Virus record (IMG/VR): IMGVR_UViG_3300047284_000355
Span: 1-27,288 of that record
Direction: 5' to 3' (one strand)
Origin: a virus
Length of the DNA: 27,288 nt
Below are positions 827 to 13,870 of the stretch, piece after piece (the first letter of the stretch is position 1; every line of letters begins with the position of its first letter). The notes below the pieces were generated by a model. That model had not been told where the DNA came from and made no database searches. It worked only from the letters and a program-made list of their open reading frames with translations. Both the position numbers and the translations under genes were made by a program.

Positions 827-1138
827 ATGAGCACCATCAGCCGCCAAATCATCACCGCCGCCGTCAACGTCACCGAGAGCGACGCCTACAGCGCGAGCGA
901 CATCGCCGCCGCCATGCTGGACGTGGTGTGGCGCGACGCCGACGACTGGACTGTGGAGTTTGTTCGCGAGGTGATGACCACGGTGATTTTCGTTGTCAGC
1001 ACTGACGACAACGACGAGTACGCCGACGTTGCCGACATCATCACCACTGCAGCGCGCGCTATCATGACCGGCGCGGCACGCGCTGAGGATGAGCAGGGCT
1101 GGGTTGACGTGGATGACATCGAGGTTGAGTTCGCCTAG
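827..1138 (+). CDS. Small acidic early protein, unknown function
   Basis: 103 residues. The ATG at 827 is chosen over an upstream in-frame codon because AAGGAGA (813-819) precedes it at good spacing. The product is strongly acidic and rich in Asp, Glu and Ala, with a hydrophobic central stretch (MTTVIFVVS) and an acidic C-terminus (WVDVDDIEVEF). It is the first gene after the early promoter, a place where phages often encode host-takeover proteins; that role is only an inference. The N-terminus contains NVTES, also found near the start of the product at 1530. Its stop lies only a few bases before a hammerhead ribozyme. No family is recognised. Confidence 0.75.
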   Translation: MSTISRQIITAAVNVTESDAYSASDIAAAMLDVVWRDADDWTVEFVREVMTTVIFVVSTDDNDEYADVADIITTAARAIMTGAARAEDEQGWVDVDDIEVEFA

Positions 1139-1143
1139 TCCCA

Positions 1144-1207
1144 CGACGAAACCGGCGGCGATGACCTCAAAGCCGGTCTGCTGGTGAGTGCCAGCACTGA
1201 TGAGTCG
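1144..1207 (+). ncRNA. Type II hammerhead ribozyme, copy 1
   Basis: All core elements are present in the order of a type II (stem II open) hammerhead. Stem II 3' strand CGAC (1144-1147) is followed by GAAA (1148-1151). Stem III is A1151-C1156 with G1172-T1177, with loop 1157-1171. H17 is C1178, the predicted cleavage site. Stem I is 1179-1184 with 1191-1196 (6 bp, loop TGAGTG), followed by CTGATGA (1197-1203). Stem II 5' strand GTCG (1204-1207) closes with 1144-1147. Cleavage after C1178 would separate the message of the gene at 827 from that at 1223. The downstream product would start with stem I and carry AAGGAG shortly after. Activity is inferred from structure; no required core base is missing. 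Confidence 0.9.
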
Positions 1208-1222
1208 CAGAAGGAGAATCCC

Positions 1223-1444
1223 ATGAGCAATCTCGCAACGTTCCCAGTCCGCATCCGCACCCAGTTCGAGCTTGACCAAATCGCCGCCGCGTACCGCATC
1301 GCACAGGAAATGGCCACCGACATGCCGCCCTCACAGCTGCAGTTCATGGCGGACGTGTTCAGCGGTGTGGCAGAGGCCAACGACGACGACATCGCTCGGG
1401 GCATGGCGCAGGCGTTCTTGGACACACTGGAGACCATCGGATAG
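1223..1444 (+). CDS. Small early protein between two hammerhead ribozymes, unknown function
   Basis: 73 residues. The ATG at 1223 follows AAGGAG (1211-1216); an earlier in-frame codon at 1184 lies inside the ribozyme stem and is rejected. The product looks helical and acidic (FELDQIAAAYRIAQEMA, then DDDIARGMAQAFLDTLETIG) with no membrane segment or known motif. Its message would be bounded by ribozyme cleavage at 1178 and 1482, giving a discrete RNA of about 300 bases with hairpins at both ends. The function is unknown. Confidence 0.75.
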   Translation: MSNLATFPVRIRTQFELDQIAAAYRIAQEMATDMPPSQLQFMADVFSGVAEANDDDIARGMAQAFLDTLETIG

Positions 1445-1447
1445 CCA

Positions 1448-1510
1448 CGACGAAACCGGCGGCGATGACCTCAAAGCCGGTCGCTGGGTGAGACCCAGCC
1501 TGATGAGTCG
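1448..1510 (+). ncRNA. Type II hammerhead ribozyme, copy 2
   Basis: This is the same architecture as copy 1. CGAC (1448-1451) precedes GAAA (1452-1455). Stem III is 1455-1460 with 1476-1481, and C1482 is H17. Stem I is 1483-1488 with 1494-1499 (plus a possible T1489-A1493 pair), then CTGATGA (1500-1506) and GTCG (1507-1510). The 38 bases 1445-1482 are identical to 1141-1178, whereas stem I differs at four pairs while staying fully paired (for example T-A becomes G-C next to the cleavage site). This compensatory change is strong evidence for a selected RNA fold. Cleavage after 1482 would free the message starting at the gene at 1530. Confidence 0.9.
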
Positions 1511-4085: not shown

Positions 4086-4121
4086 GCTCCCCGCTCTATG
4101 TCACGATGCAGGGCGGGGAGC
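4086..4121. repeat. Palindromic element, copy 1
   Basis: GCTCCCCGCTCT (4086-4097) pairs with 4110-4121 (12 bp including one G-T pair), with loop 4098-4109. It fills the gap between the SSB-like gene and the next gene and ends 14 bases before the start codon's GGGAGGAG. Copies occur at 4399-4432 and 4758-4787. Copy 3 has the same orientation and copy 2 is reversed. Confidence 0.8.
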
Positions 4122-4142: not shown

Positions 4143-4391
4143 ATGGATGAGTTTTTTCATGTACAGTCATACGAAGCGCTGAGGCAGCTCATTGCACAGC
4201 GACAAGGCACAGTTATGTATCACACTCCATTGCCCGATGATGAGTATCACTGTCGCATCGTCATTGAAAATGACATCGTTGACGTATACGGCAGAATCAG
4301 CAATGTTGTCCTCAATGAGCAGTATCGCCCACGCAATTTTGACATTAGAGTTACCTCAGTGATTCATATGCCAGACCAAGTAACTCGCTAA
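4143..4391 (+). CDS. Hypothetical accessory protein
   Basis: 82 residues. The ATG at 4143 is supported by GGGAGGAG upstream; earlier in-frame codons run through the hairpin element and are rejected. The coding sequence is visibly AT-richer than the flanking replication genes. The product is acidic with a beta pattern (CRIVIENDIVDVYGRISNVVL). No family is recognised. It is one of two genes set between copies of the palindromic element, which suggests a small accessory insertion. Confidence 0.6.
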   Translation: MDEFFHVQSYEALRQLIAQRQGTVMYHTPLPDDEYHCRIVIENDIVDVYGRISNVVLNEQYRPRNFDIRVTSVIHMPDQVTR

Positions 4392-4398
4392 GCCACCA

Positions 4399-4432
4399 CT
4401 CCCCGCTCTGCATCATGACACAGAGCGGGGAG
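4399..4432. repeat. Palindromic element, copy 2 (reversed orientation)
   Basis: CTCCCCGCTCTG (4399-4410) pairs perfectly with 4421-4432 around a 10-base loop. The centre reads TGCATCATGACA, which is the reverse complement of the centre of copies 1 and 3 (TGTCACGATGCA) with one change, so this copy is inverted. It is followed by GCAAGCAGAGAGGAGAT, nearly the same as after copy 1, which supplies the Shine-Dalgarno sequence for the next gene. Confidence 0.8.
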
Positions 4433-4757: not shown

Positions 4758-4793
4758 CCCCGCTCTGTGTCACGATGCAGGGCGGGGTTCTTT
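4758..4793 (+). terminator. Palindromic element copy 3, terminator-like
   Basis: CCCCGCTCT (4758-4766) pairs with 4779-4787 (9 bp, one G-T), followed by TTCTTT (4788-4793). This is the only one of the three copies followed by a T-rich stretch, and it lies just upstream of a promoter. It therefore looks like a rho-independent terminator isolating the next gene pair. The core TGTCACGATGCAGGGCGGGG is identical to copy 1. Confidence 0.65.
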
Positions 4794-5596: not shown

Positions 5597-7779
5597 CTCA
5601 ATCCACCGCAGAAGCGGTGCTGGCACGTCTCAGAGACATTGTAGAGGTCGGAGACGGTCGGTACCGCGCTAATTCCCCATATCGCCCAAACTCGGACTCA
5701 CAGAGCTTTGCATTGACCATCCACGGGCCAGAGCATGGCGTGTGGTTCGACCACGTCAGCCAGCAGAGTGGCACGCTGTATCAGCTCGCCAAGCACCTCG
5801 GCGTGGCACTGCCAGAGCAAGGCCCCGTCAGTGACACTAAGGCGGCGAAGACGTTCGAGCAGTTTGCGCAGGATCATGGCGTGGACGTGGCTGTGTATGA
5901 ACGGGCGGGGTGGCGGGCAACGACGTATCAGCGATTGCCCGCCATTGCGTTTGAGACAAAGACGGGAGTGCGCTACCGCCTGCTGTCGGGGTCAAGCAAG
6001 TACAAAAGCGTCATGGGGTATAAGCCGTGCTGGTATCGTCTTGACGAAGCCATCGCACTGGCCAAAGAAAAGAATGCGCCGCTCGTACTCTGTAATGGCG
6101 AAGCGTCCACCGTGCCCGCACAGGCTATGGGAGTGCCTGCAACGTGCGTTACGGGCGGAGCGGAACGTCAGATACCAGAAGCACTATTACAAGAGCTTAC
6201 AGAGGCGTACAGCGGCGATATTGTCATTGCGCTTGACTGCGACGAAAAGGGGCGTACATCGGCACGCAAGCTACACGCCCAGCTTAAGACGGTGGCCACG
6301 CTCCAGCCACGCATGGTTGACCTGAAGCTCGGCGACAAAGGCGACATCGCCGACTACCTGCGGTTGTGGTCGCCCGTTGATTTGTACGCCTTGCCAGACA
6401 TCGCCAAGCAAGAGTACATCACCGCCTTGCCACGCTCTATCACGGCGGCGGAGCTCCAACACGTCGAGGTGCCCCCACTCGAGTACCTGATTGACGAATT
6501 GATGGTGCCCGGGTGCTACCTGCTGGCAGGCGCACCGAAGAGCCGTAAAAGCTTCGTGGCTCTGCACATGGCCATCGCCATCGCATCGGGCGGAACCGTG
6601 TTTGGGCGGTTCAATGTGCCAAAGAAGTACGGCGTGTTGTACCTTGACTTGGAGATGAGCCAGAACTCTGTCTACCGCCGTGTGAAGACGATGATGCAGC
6701 AGGGTATGGTGTGGCCAAAGAATCTGCATTTCATGTTCAACGATGCTTGGACATTTCGTGGAGTCGAAGCCGGTGCGCACCTCGACAACTGGTTGGACGT
6801 GCATACCGACGTGCGAGTCGTAATCATCGACGTGCTTGCACAGTGGAAGGAGCCGGTTGACCCACGCACGCCTGTCTACACCGCCGACTACGATGCACTG
6901 AAGTTTATCCAGCGCATTGCTACACGGCGCAACATTGCCATCATCGTGGTGCACCATACGAACAAGTCGAAGATGAGCAAGGGCGACAACCCGTTCGATA
7001 AAATCAGCGGGTCAACTGGCATCCAAGGCGCGGTCGATGCCATGTGGCTCCTCGTGCGTGATCCTGAAAACCCCATGGCCACCACGTTGCAAATGACTGA
7101 CCGCAATATCTTTGACATTGACCGCGTTGACCTCATCTGGGACGACTACCTAGGATGTCACACCGTTGACCCACGAGCGAAGCTCCTGCAAGGCGCAACC
7201 GCAGAGCGCAAAGCGGTGTACCAAGCACTGGCGGATCATGGCGCCACGATGACTCCTGCAGAGCTTGCCAGCATCGTCGGGAAGAGCGATGCGAACGTAA
7301 AGAAGATGTTGTCACGGCTCGTACAAGACCAGCTCGTTGAGAAGGTGGGATATGGCCGGTATAAGACTATCCCTATTATAAATAACGGTTACTCTGGTTA
7401 CTCTGGTAATTCTAGTTACTCTGGTTACTCTGGTTACTCTATAGATGAGAGTAACCAAGAGAGTAATCAGAGAGTAACCGAAGAGTACCCAAGAGTAACC
7501 GGGAGTAACTCAAGAGTAACTACGGGGTTTGAGGCAATACAATCACCTAAACCCCCCAAGAGTAACCAGAGTAACCAATATTTGTATAGAGAGCACATCA
7601 TCAGAGAGCTGGGGCGCAAGGTTATATTGGAGAATGTGCTGATTCCAAGCTTTGCCAGTCGCATTGAATGGCCTGCGGTGCGTGCAGAACTGCAAGCCAT
7701 GGTCGACGCTGGAGAGCTTCGCAGTATATCGACGGCACGGGGTATTGCCTATCAAGTGGCATCGCTCGCCACATCGTAA
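5593..7779 (+). CDS. Bifunctional primase-helicase (TOPRIM + RecA-like hexameric helicase)
   Basis: 728 residues, ATG overlapping the previous stop. The N-terminal part (1-90) resembles the zinc-finger region of phage primases but lacks cysteines. A TOPRIM domain lies at about 160-225, with Glu in LCNGEAS and Asp pair in IALDCDEKG. A RepA/DnaB-like ATPase spans about 290-510: Walker A GAPKSRKS (313-320), Walker B VVIIDVL (409-415) and HHTNKS (454-459). A winged helix follows at 530-590 (MTPAELASIVGKSDANVKKMLSRL). Residues 599-660 are a low-complexity linker encoded by a 9-bp repeat array, followed by a second small helical domain. It should prime and unwind DNA at the phage fork. No DNA polymerase is present in the window, so a host or off-window polymerase is implied. 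Confidence 0.85.
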   Translation: MTQSTAEAVLARLRDIVEVGDGRYRANSPYRPNSDSQSFALTIHGPEHGVWFDHVSQQSGTLYQLAKHLGVALPEQGPVSDTKAAKTFEQFAQDHGVDVAVYERAGWRATTYQRLPAIAFETKTGVRYRLLSGSSKYKSVMGYKPCWYRLDEAIALAKEKNAPLVLCNGEASTVPAQAMGVPATCVTGGAERQIPEALLQELTEAYSGDIVIALDCDEKGRTSARKLHAQLKTVATLQPRMVDLKLGDKGDIADYLRLWSPVDLYALPDIAKQEYITALPRSITAAELQHVEVPPLEYLIDELMVPGCYLLAGAPKSRKSFVALHMAIAIASGGTVFGRFNVPKKYGVLYLDLEMSQNSVYRRVKTMMQQGMVWPKNLHFMFNDAWTFRGVEAGAHLDNWLDVHTDVRVVIIDVLAQWKEPVDPRTPVYTADYDALKFIQRIATRRNIAIIVVHHTNKSKMSKGDNPFDKISGSTGIQGAVDAMWLLVRDPENPMATTLQMTDRNIFDIDRVDLIWDDYLGCHTVDPRAKLLQGATAERKAVYQALADHGATMTPAELASIVGKSDANVKKMLSRLVQDQLVEKVGYGRYKTIPIINNGYSGYSGNSSYSGYSGYSIDESNQESNQRVTEEYPRVTGSNSRVTTGFEAIQSPKPPKSNQSNQYLYREHIIRELGRKVILENVLIPSFASRIEWPAVRAELQAMVDAGELRSISTARGIAYQVASLATS
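7387..7440. repeat. Six tandem 9-bp repeats (GGTTACTCT), left half of an iteron-like array
   Basis: Units start at 7387, 7396, 7405 (GGTAATTCT), 7414 (AGTTACTCT), 7423 and 7432. Because 9 is divisible by 3, they encode a repeated Tyr-Ser-Gly peptide within the primase-helicase. An AT-rich stretch precedes the array (7361-7386). The right half of the array carries the same unit in inverted orientation. Confidence 0.85.
7448..7576. repeat. Nine inverted copies (AGAGTAACC), right half of the iteron-like array
   Basis: Units begin at 7448, 7460, 7471, 7482, 7492, 7502, 7513, 7559 and 7568; most match AGAGTAACC and a few differ by one or two bases. The first seven are spaced 10-12 bases apart, about one helical turn, and fall in all three codon phases of the host gene. 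Selection is therefore more likely on DNA than on the peptide. This suggests repeated protein-binding sites such as an origin, operator or segregation site. Confidence 0.85.
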
Positions 7780-12090: not shown

Positions 12091-12368
12091 TGATGCACTT
12101 CAACACGAAGCCACTCACTCTTGATGAAGTCATCGCCGAACACGGCGACCGCATTGTGCGTGTGCACTACAGCATCGACAGCGCCGACATGCTGCCAACA
12201 CTGGTAATCAAAGTAACGGACAGATATTTGACCACACTTCGCTACATCAATGCAAACAATCTCTGGCAACTCCAAGCCTACACGTTGGACGCATCAATCC
12301 ACGAGCCACGCAACGACGATGCGGTACGCCGTGTTCTTGATGTAGTGCGAAAGATGGGAGCACCATGA
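12087..12368 (+). CDS. Hypothetical protein
   Basis: 93 residues. Three consecutive in-frame ATGs lie at 12087, 12090 and 12093; AAGGAG at 12075-12080 best fits the first. The product is mixed alpha/beta with TLDEVIAEHGDRIVRVHYSIDS and ends in DDAVRRVLDVVRKMG. It contains no recognisable catalytic pattern. Overlaps with dcd and the methyltransferase show coupled translation. Confidence 0.6.
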   Translation: MMMHFNTKPLTLDEVIAEHGDRIVRVHYSIDSADMLPTLVIKVTDRYLTTLRYINANNLWQLQAYTLDASIHEPRNDDAVRRVLDVVRKMGAP

Positions 12369-13870
12369 ACTACGAACTCCACCTCGGCGACAATCGTGAG
12401 GTACTCCGCTCCATGCCGTCCGACAGTGTGGACAGCATCGTCACCGATCCGCCGTATGAGCTCGGCTTTATGGGGAAGCGATGGGATAGCACGGGCATCG
12501 CCTACGACCAATCACTGTGGGCGGAGTGCCTGCGAGTGTTGAAACCAGGTGGGCACTTGATTGCGTTCGGTGGTACTCGGACATATCACCGCATGACCGT
12601 CGCCATTGAGGATGCAGGCTTTGAGATACGGGATTGTATTCAATGGATATATGGCTCGGGATTCCCGAAAAGCCTTGACGTGAGCAAGGCGATTGATAAG
12701 CAGGCAGGGGCGGAGCGGGAGGTGGTGGGCACTAGCGCCAACGGCATAGCAGGCGGAACCGGTAAACATGCAGGCGAATCGGAAAAATATGGATTTGCTA
12801 AAGAATACAACATCACCGCTCCTGCCACGCCCGAAGCCCAGCAGTGGCACGGCTTTGGCACTGCGCTCAAGCCCGCAAACGAACCCGCCGTGCTTGCACG
12901 GAAGCCACTGTCAGGCACGGTGGCGGACAATGTGCTGACGTGGGGATGCGGTGCGCTGAACATTGACGGGTGCAGGGTGGGGAATGAGGAGCGAATAAAT
13001 CAGGGAATGTCATCATTAGGGGTAATGCACGATGATGATTGGCAACCAAAAAATGTGTCAAGTACGGTCAGTGGACGTTGGCCTGCCAACGTCATCCTCG
13101 ATGAGGAGGCGGCGCAGATGCTGGATGCACAGAGTGGGCACGGCGCATCACGATTTTTTTATATTGCAAAATCATCGAAAGCGGAGCGGGAGGCGGGGCT
13201 TGACTGTATATGTACCGTAAAGTACAATGTTGATAGGTCTATTTTAGGAGGCTTATCATGGAAAGACGTAAGTACGGTAGCGGTTCAATTACTGCAAAAG
13301 GTTACATCCGAATTGGCAATGCTGAAATGGCACATCGACGAGTATGGCGAAAACATTACGGCGCAGTACCCGTCGGATTCTTTATTCATCACATCAATGG
13401 AGATAAGCAAGACAACCGCATTGAAAACTTGCAACTTGTTGATGCACTTACTCACAAACGAATCCATAGCGGATGCGAATTGCGAGATGGGCAATGGTTC
13501 AAGCCATGCAAAAAGTGCGGAGAGTTTAAGAGCGTGGATTCTGAATACTACAAACGGAAAGATGGAATTAGCCCTTGGTGTCGTCAATGTTGTATTGACA
13601 ACGCTGTCGCAAATAAACAAAAAAGAGCCACAGCAAAGAAACAACAGTCATAGCACCGTCAAGCCCATTACGCTCATGCGCTACCTCGTCCGCATGGTCA
13701 CGCCCCGTGGTGGCGTCGTGCTTGACCCGTTCATGGGCAGTGGTACGACGGGGTGCGCCGCCATGCTGGAGGGGATGAACTTCATCGGCATCGACATCAC
13801 TCCGGAGTACAAAGACATCGCCGAGCGACGCATTGAGTATTGGGCATCGCAAAACCCGATGGAGCTCTAA
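12365..13870 (+). CDS. Beta-class DNA methyltransferase interrupted by an HNH-gene insertion
   Basis: 501 residues, S-adenosylmethionine-dependent N4-cytosine or N6-adenine methyltransferase. Motif IV TDPPYELGF (27-35) precedes the target-recognition region, and motif I LDPFMGSGTTG (453-463) is near the C-terminus, giving the IV-TRD-I order of the beta class. Conserved phage-MTase blocks RFFYIAKSSKAEREAGLD (263-280) and HSTVKPITLMRYL (429-441) are separated by about 148 unrelated residues. These coincide with a nested HNH gene in another frame and have visibly AT-richer codons. The methyltransferase frame is open across the insertion (444 bases), so a full-length product with an insertion loop can be translated. 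Whether it is active is uncertain. Confidence 0.8.
   Translation: MNYELHLGDNREVLRSMPSDSVDSIVTDPPYELGFMGKRWDSTGIAYDQSLWAECLRVLKPGGHLIAFGGTRTYHRMTVAIEDAGFEIRDCIQWIYGSGFPKSLDVSKAIDKQAGAEREVVGTSANGIAGGTGKHAGESEKYGFAKEYNITAPATPEAQQWHGFGTALKPANEPAVLARKPLSGTVADNVLTWGCGALNIDGCRVGNEERINQGMSSLGVMHDDDWQPKNVSSTVSGRWPANVILDEEAAQMLDAQSGHGASRFFYIAKSSKAEREAGLDCICTVKYNVDRSILGGLSWKDVSTVAVQLLQKVTSELAMLKWHIDEYGENITAQYPSDSLFITSMEISKTTALKTCNLLMHLLTNESIADANCEMGNGSSHAKSAESLRAWILNTTNGKMELALGVVNVVLTTLSQINKKEPQQRNNSHSTVKPITLMRYLVRMVTPRGGVVLDPFMGSGTTGCAAMLEGMNFIGIDITPEYKDIAERRIEYWASQNPMEL
13200..13228 (+). promoter_or_regulatory. Internal promoter of the nested HNH gene
   Basis: TTGACT (13200-13205) and TACAAT (13223-13228) are separated by exactly 17 bases, close to the sigma70 consensus. 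The -35 is formed by conserved methyltransferase codons at the insertion boundary, and the -10 lies in inserted DNA. AGGAGG (13246-13251) and the HNH start codon follow within 30 bases. Confidence 0.6.
13258..13653 (+). CDS. HNH homing-type endonuclease nested in the methyltransferase gene
   Basis: 131 residues with AGGAGG 6 bases before the ATG, in the +2 frame relative to the methyltransferase. The central HNH motif is HHINGDKQDNRIENLQLV (about 44-61), preceded by a GYIRI-MAHRRVWRKHYG region typical of HNH_3/AP2-like homing enzymes. Two cysteine pairs (CKKC near 84-87 and CRQC near 107-110) form a probable zinc ribbon. Its codons are AT-richer than the host gene. There is too little extra sequence for a group I intron, since the insertion is hardly longer than the ORF. 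It should cut near the equivalent insertion site in uninserted methyltransferase alleles, a homing behaviour inferred from the family. Confidence 0.85.
   Translation: MERRKYGSGSITAKGYIRIGNAEMAHRRVWRKHYGAVPVGFFIHHINGDKQDNRIENLQLVDALTHKRIHSGCELRDGQWFKPCKKCGEFKSVDSEYYKRKDGISPWCRQCCIDNAVANKQKRATAKKQQS

Follow-up and report, generated by a model that had tools for sequence, protein, structure and literature searches.

The early transcript of phage T7 is cut between genes at RNase III sites, leaving terminal hairpins. In prophages, clusters of type I, II, and III hammerhead ribozymes that flank single genes or short gene blocks have been reported, and it was proposed that long phage transcripts are cut by them into gene-length mRNAs, with cleavage seen both in vitro and in E. 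coli (Perreault et al. 2011; PMC3088659). Hammerheads have also been described as flanking small ORFs of unknown function, and the role of prokaryotic hammerheads is considered an open question (PMC6155905). In synthetic biology, RiboJ, a hammerhead-derived insulator placed upstream of a ribosome-binding site (RBS), raised transcript abundance about twofold (PMC6206723). Here we analysed a DNA stretch of 27,288 bases (hereafter the window), which is the whole IMG/VR virus record of an uncultured phage and also carries terminase, portal, and capsid genes, with emphasis on two hammerhead elements located between the first small genes of its apparent early operon.

Two type II hammerhead elements in an early phage operon

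The features of this region, all on the + strand, are as follows.

752-781, +: promoter-like site TTGCAT-18-TATAAT ahead of g1, read from the sequence
827-1138, +: g1, 103 aa, very acidic (net -18), the slot-1 gene, no family match
1141-1178, +: 5' half of ribozyme a, 38 nt (stem II 5' strand, GAA, stem III hairpin, and C1178), identical to 1445-1482
1144-1207, +: ribozyme a, type II hammerhead by core, stems, fold, and covariation; predicted cleavage between C1178 and U1179
1211-1216, +: Shine-Dalgarno (SD) sequence AAGGAG of g2, 3 nt past ribozyme a
1223-1444, +: g2, 73 aa; its orthologue in the related contig L024 is the first gene there
1445-1482, +: 5' half of ribozyme b, 38 nt, ending in the cleavage base C1482, identical to 1141-1178
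1448-1510, +: ribozyme b, type II hammerhead by core, stems, fold, and covariation; predicted cleavage between C1482 and G1483
1518-1524, +: SD sequence AAGGAGG of g3, 7 nt past ribozyme b
1530-1838, +: g3, 102 aa, conserved; in lineages A and B (see below) it immediately follows the last ribozyme

Both copies have the order CGAC-GAA-A...U-C-stem I hairpin-CUGAUGA-GUCG. Copy a reads CGAC-GAA-ACCGGC...GCCGGU-C-UGCUGG...CCAGCA-CUGAUGA-GUCG, and copy b has the same 5' half together with GCUGGG(U)/(A)CCCAGC as stem I. The type II core is complete in each (CUGAUGA, GAA, the A15.1-U16.1 pair, and C17 at position H17), and a stem scan and minimum-free-energy folding place three helices round it, with stem II (4 pairs) open and stems III (6 pairs) and I (6-8 pairs) closed by loops. 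When either domain is folded in isolation, its minimum-free-energy structure is exactly the three-way hammerhead; competing folds are predicted for both copies in longer sequence context. A strict motif scan returned these two elements in the window and none in 1000 Markov-1 simulated windows. By their sequence, both elements are real type II hammerhead ribozymes, for which self-cleavage is predicted, and the 38 bases that they share end precisely with the bases after which cleavage is predicted (C1178 and C1482).

The two elements share with the Rfam family Hammerhead_II (RF02276) the same core, open stem II, and order of parts. However, the Rfam model gave copy a only 28.5 bits, below the gathering score of 37, which is a library cut-off and not a mechanistic requirement (E-value 0.05 against all of Rfam and 1.2e-5 in a single-family search), and it did not report copy b. 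A covariance model built from ten hammerheads of related phages, with both window copies in its training set, scored copies a and b at 88.6 and 80.4 bits; it recovered 13 hammerheads, scoring 62-91 bits, from 11 phage records, and nothing else exceeded 28. Furthermore, the pseudoknot between loop I and the 3' tail that is common in type II hammerheads is absent here: among the 13 homologues, none of at least 4 bp was found above chance, the longest complementarity being 2-3 nt in most of them and 4 nt, a chance-level value, in L060. The speed of cleavage at low Mg2+ is therefore uncertain. Base pairing between the SD sequence and the loop of stem III (CCUC) was rejected as a candidate, as it amounts to 4 bp in copy b only and, judged by eye, is not conserved.

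A preliminary description of this DNA had reported two intact type II cores at 1144-1207 and 1448-1510, the first 38 bases being identical, in the gaps between tiny consecutive early genes. Our analyses agree on coordinates, core, stems, cleavage bases, and identity, and place both elements on the coding strand close to the beginning of the apparent early operon. The covariance-model check that it proposed had a divided outcome, in that the two copies score highly under the model that was trained on them and poorly or not at all under that of Rfam. It had also counted four changed base pairs in stem I. Both strands of this stem are indeed changed under either alignment reading, but the difference can equally be read as a one-pair shift, with one pair lost at the base and one gained near the loop, and hence possibly as fewer independent events. 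As to the strong promoter that it placed upstream, the site at 752-781 can be read by eye and was not flagged by a consensus promoter scan; three other phages (L022, L023, and L026) have TTGACA-17-TATAC/T at the same place.

No family was found for g1-g3 in Pfam or PHROGs, and the predicted structures of g1 and g3 were of low confidence and had no significant fold match. The promoter-first gene is often strongly acidic, with a net charge of -14.5 to -17.5 per 100 residues (window 827-1138; L059:992-1345; L027:2350-2823), which resembles DNA-mimic anti-restriction proteins, although g1 has neither a family nor a fold match. Several other features of the window were also recorded. Three near-identical long hairpins (CCCCGCTC-14 nt loop-GGGCGGGG) occupy successive early-gene gaps at 4089-4118, 4401-4430, and 4758-4787, the middle one being inverted so that its loop is nearly complementary to those of the other two; they may represent a second kind of intergenic element, and a hairpin pattern scan of relatives revealed GC-rich hairpins of similar shape with a different loop. 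Nine-base tandem repeats (GGTTACTCT) encoding GYS repeats are present at 7387-7520 near the end of an AAA-domain replication gene and are followed by a second array of similar units. The DNA methyltransferase gene at 12365-13870 has an apparent insertion of ~316 codons relative to L059, in which the counterparts of query residues 160 and 477 are nearly adjacent, and an HNH-like endonuclease ORF lies at 13258-13653 in a frame different from that of the methyltransferase gene. This insertion is possibly a homing element; no Rfam match to a group I intron was found for it in the window.

Homologues, covariation, and a relic hairpin

Relatives were gathered by protein (g11, tail fibre assembly gene, g3) and by DNA pattern; the cultured-phage collection contained none for either the early region or g11. 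The 11 records with hammerheads fall into four lineages, namely A (the window, L024, and L012), B (L022 and L023), C (L051, L058, and L062), and D (L059, L060, and L064). Only the window and L024 have two copies, and each of the other nine records has a single hammerhead, so the tandem layout that the preliminary description had presented is not the general form. Among the 12 distinct hammerhead sequences, standard pairs occupy 97.4% of pair cells, the covariation score is 0.467 (compared with 0.133 when shuffled and at most 0.148 when slid), and eight pairs, located in stems I and III, are changed on both sides. The earlier proposal that the fold is under selection is thus supported, now on the basis of 13 homologues beyond the comparison of the two window copies. 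Stem II is CGAC/GUCG in every copy of the four lineages. For five of the 13 (those of L058, L059, L060, L062, and L064), the search pattern itself prescribed stem II and some of the core, so conservation of these parts in them is partly a matter of ascertainment, whereas L022, L023, and L051 were found by protein and this stem II was not required for them. The first pattern matches L002-L021, apart from L012 and L015, lacked the rest of the motif and were rejected; broader-pattern matches in bacterial genomes (L065-L082) scored at most 25 bits and were treated as chance.

The position of the ribozyme relative to the surrounding genes is also constant. In all 13 cases, the stop codon of the upstream gene ends 3-5 nt before the ribozyme, and the distance from the ribozyme is 0-11 nt to the beginning of the SD sequence and 12-25 nt to the start codon. 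The predicted 5' end of the downstream message after cleavage is the stem I hairpin of 6-7 bp.

At the corresponding site ahead of g3 in the sister contigs L025-L027, the distal hairpin of stem III (CAGCGCCGUCACA-U-CGGCGGCGC) is still present and the catalytic core is not, which is most simply interpreted as a relic whose core was lost; the ribozyme would then be dispensable. L103, an otherwise different 80-kb phage that was found only via its 75%-identical gX, has a type II hammerhead at 467-557, placed like the others between a stop codon and an SD sequence; its core is CUGACGA and its stem II CGGC/GCCG. In a second copy in this phage, from 1856, 45 bases are identical to those of the first, but the core is broken. 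Several gene gaps of L103, between the hammerheads and beyond, also contain a repeated structured element (GCAACGCTCACCTGC...GTGAG...) with no Rfam match (1025-1059, 1426-1460, 2121-2155, and 4391-4425).

Gene replacement at ribozyme edges

The gene order is promoter-g1-ribozyme a-g2-ribozyme b-g3 in the window, promoter-g2-ribozyme a-gX-ribozyme b-g3 in L024, and promoter-gY-ribozyme a-gX in L012, where the contig ends. The g2 orthologue (85% identity), for which L024 was the only contig matched when g2 was searched elsewhere, lies after ribozyme a in the window and before ribozyme a in L024. The two records are collinear from g3 to g11 but differ in the promoter-proximal gene and in both slots bounded by ribozymes.

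We compared the flanks over 150 nt upstream and downstream of the ribozymes, the background for unrelated flanks being ~55-69% identity. Ribozyme b of the window and ribozyme a of L024 have 96% identity upstream and 65% downstream, whereas the comparison of the two b copies gives 67% upstream and 86% downstream. Likewise, identity is 63% upstream and 87% downstream for the a copies of L024 and L012, and 68% and 93%, respectively, for L022 and L023. Local alignment shows that homology restarts within 1 nt of the 5' edge of the ribozyme in both L012/L024 and L022/L023, and in the former pair it reaches 100% over 195 nt as against 86.6% over the preceding 3.5 kb. Judged from these alignments, homology between related phages breaks at the edge of the ribozyme or at its cleavage site, and different genes fill the same slots. 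However, the argument for swapping rests on a handful of contigs, and in other phage pairs gene replacements are also found at junctions that have no ribozyme, implying that the ribozyme is not the sole breakpoint. Gene boundaries are favoured breakpoints anyway.

Proposed function and comparison with known systems

Considering these observations, we suggest that the early transcript, as it is being made, is most likely cut by the type II hammerheads after C1178 and C1482 and that their function is insulation, a reading to which we assign a probability of about 0.6. The mechanism put forward in the preliminary description, in which cutting at these two bases gives separate messages, is plausible. 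After cleavage, the upstream message would terminate with the stem III hairpin and carry a 2',3'-cyclic phosphate, and the downstream message would start with a 5'-hydroxyl in the paired stem I hairpin, with the SD sequence directly next to it. The gene after a ribozyme would thereby obtain a constant 5' leader and the gene before it a constant 3' end, whatever the neighbouring slot holds. The type II layout suits such a role because cleavage splits the ribozyme into two hairpin halves, each self-contained, that have nothing but the 4-bp stem II in common. For the same reason, any 5' half should be compatible with any 3' half, and a working ribozyme would result when recombination takes place at the repeat; an identity of 38 bases that ends at the cleavage base is what would be expected if the two halves recombine freely. 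Judged from the relatives, the ribozymes may serve as standard self-cutting connectors between exchangeable early genes. Extending this, we tentatively consider a natural plug-in system, in which early genes would be exchanged in slots bounded by type II hammerheads with halves made interchangeable by a common stem II, recombination at the ribozyme swapping the genes and cleavage there insulating their expression; this wider scheme is possible but doubtful.

Other explanations should be weighed against insulation. The ribozyme might act as a translation-gated switch, with terminating and initiating ribosomes passing over the two stem II strands so that cleavage reports translation of the RNA. 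The uniformly tight spacing of stop codon and SD sequence that four lineages share with the unrelated phage L103 would fit this idea, but the packing of phage genes also predicts tight spacing and we saw no alternative structure common to the lineages, making such a switch unlikely. It might also be that the 38-nt repeat matters as DNA only, providing a short boundary for homologous recombination between early genes, with ribozyme activity incidental or lost. Homology does break at the element, and the fossil hairpin of L025-L027 still marks a break. However, the compensatory changes seen in stems I and III of 13 copies that all keep their core intact, and different sequences adopting the same fold across lineages, indicate selection on an RNA fold, and we regard a role in DNA only as quite improbable.

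A pair of ribozymes could, in addition, excise a 304-nt RNA (1179-1482) carrying g2, and this RNA could then be circularised, either by the ribozyme acting in reverse or by a ligase of the host, as happens with retrozymes and viroid-like RNAs. Joining of C1482 to U1179 would rebuild exactly ribozyme a because the 38-nt 5' halves are identical, and L024 has the same ribozyme pair round a different gene. This possibility appears very unlikely, since the prevalence of single hammerheads implies that a circle is not a shared function, and a ribozyme pair does not bound the unit in all members, as it would in retrozymes and viroid-like elements. Moreover, Perreault et al. sought circular products of such pairs and found none (PMC3088659), and we noticed no retroelement features.

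Insulation as the preferred reading can also be compared with the described systems. The preliminary description had taken the tandem use of hammerheads between phage genes as new, but this was already published in 2011 by Perreault et al. (PMC3088659), and the present locus resembles those clusters in having at least two close hammerheads on the same strand that flank a gene (g2) in a phage genome. It differs in that no pseudoknot was found and in the single stem II shared within these lineages. The text of that study does not deal with stop codons, SD sequences, insulation, or recombination, and, within the open-access literature, neither PMC3088659 nor PMC6155905 was found to describe a link to gene exchange, a constant location between stop codon and SD sequence, or the relic state. 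The boundary sequences at mosaic junctions of lambdoid phages (mentioned in PMC3029335) are similar as short conserved sequences at the edge of exchanged modules, whereas here the boundary sequence itself is a predicted ribozyme. As with the RNase III sites of T7, an early polycistronic phage transcript would be cut between genes to give terminal hairpins, but in T7 the cutter is a host protein and the end chemistry is different. The ribozyme of RiboJ is type III, derived from sTRSV with an added hairpin, and is placed after a promoter, whereas the elements here are natural type II ribozymes between genes. They lie directly upstream of the RBS, with a 5' hairpin predicted after cleavage, just as RiboJ cuts itself upstream of the RBS to give a hairpin leader whose sequence is fixed (PMC6206723). 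The clade offers natural comparisons, namely the same ribozyme behind different upstream genes, the same gene on either side of a ribozyme, and the relic-bearing sisters. If insulation is true, phages evolved a ribozyme insulator of the kind later invented by synthetic biology and coupled it to gene exchange.
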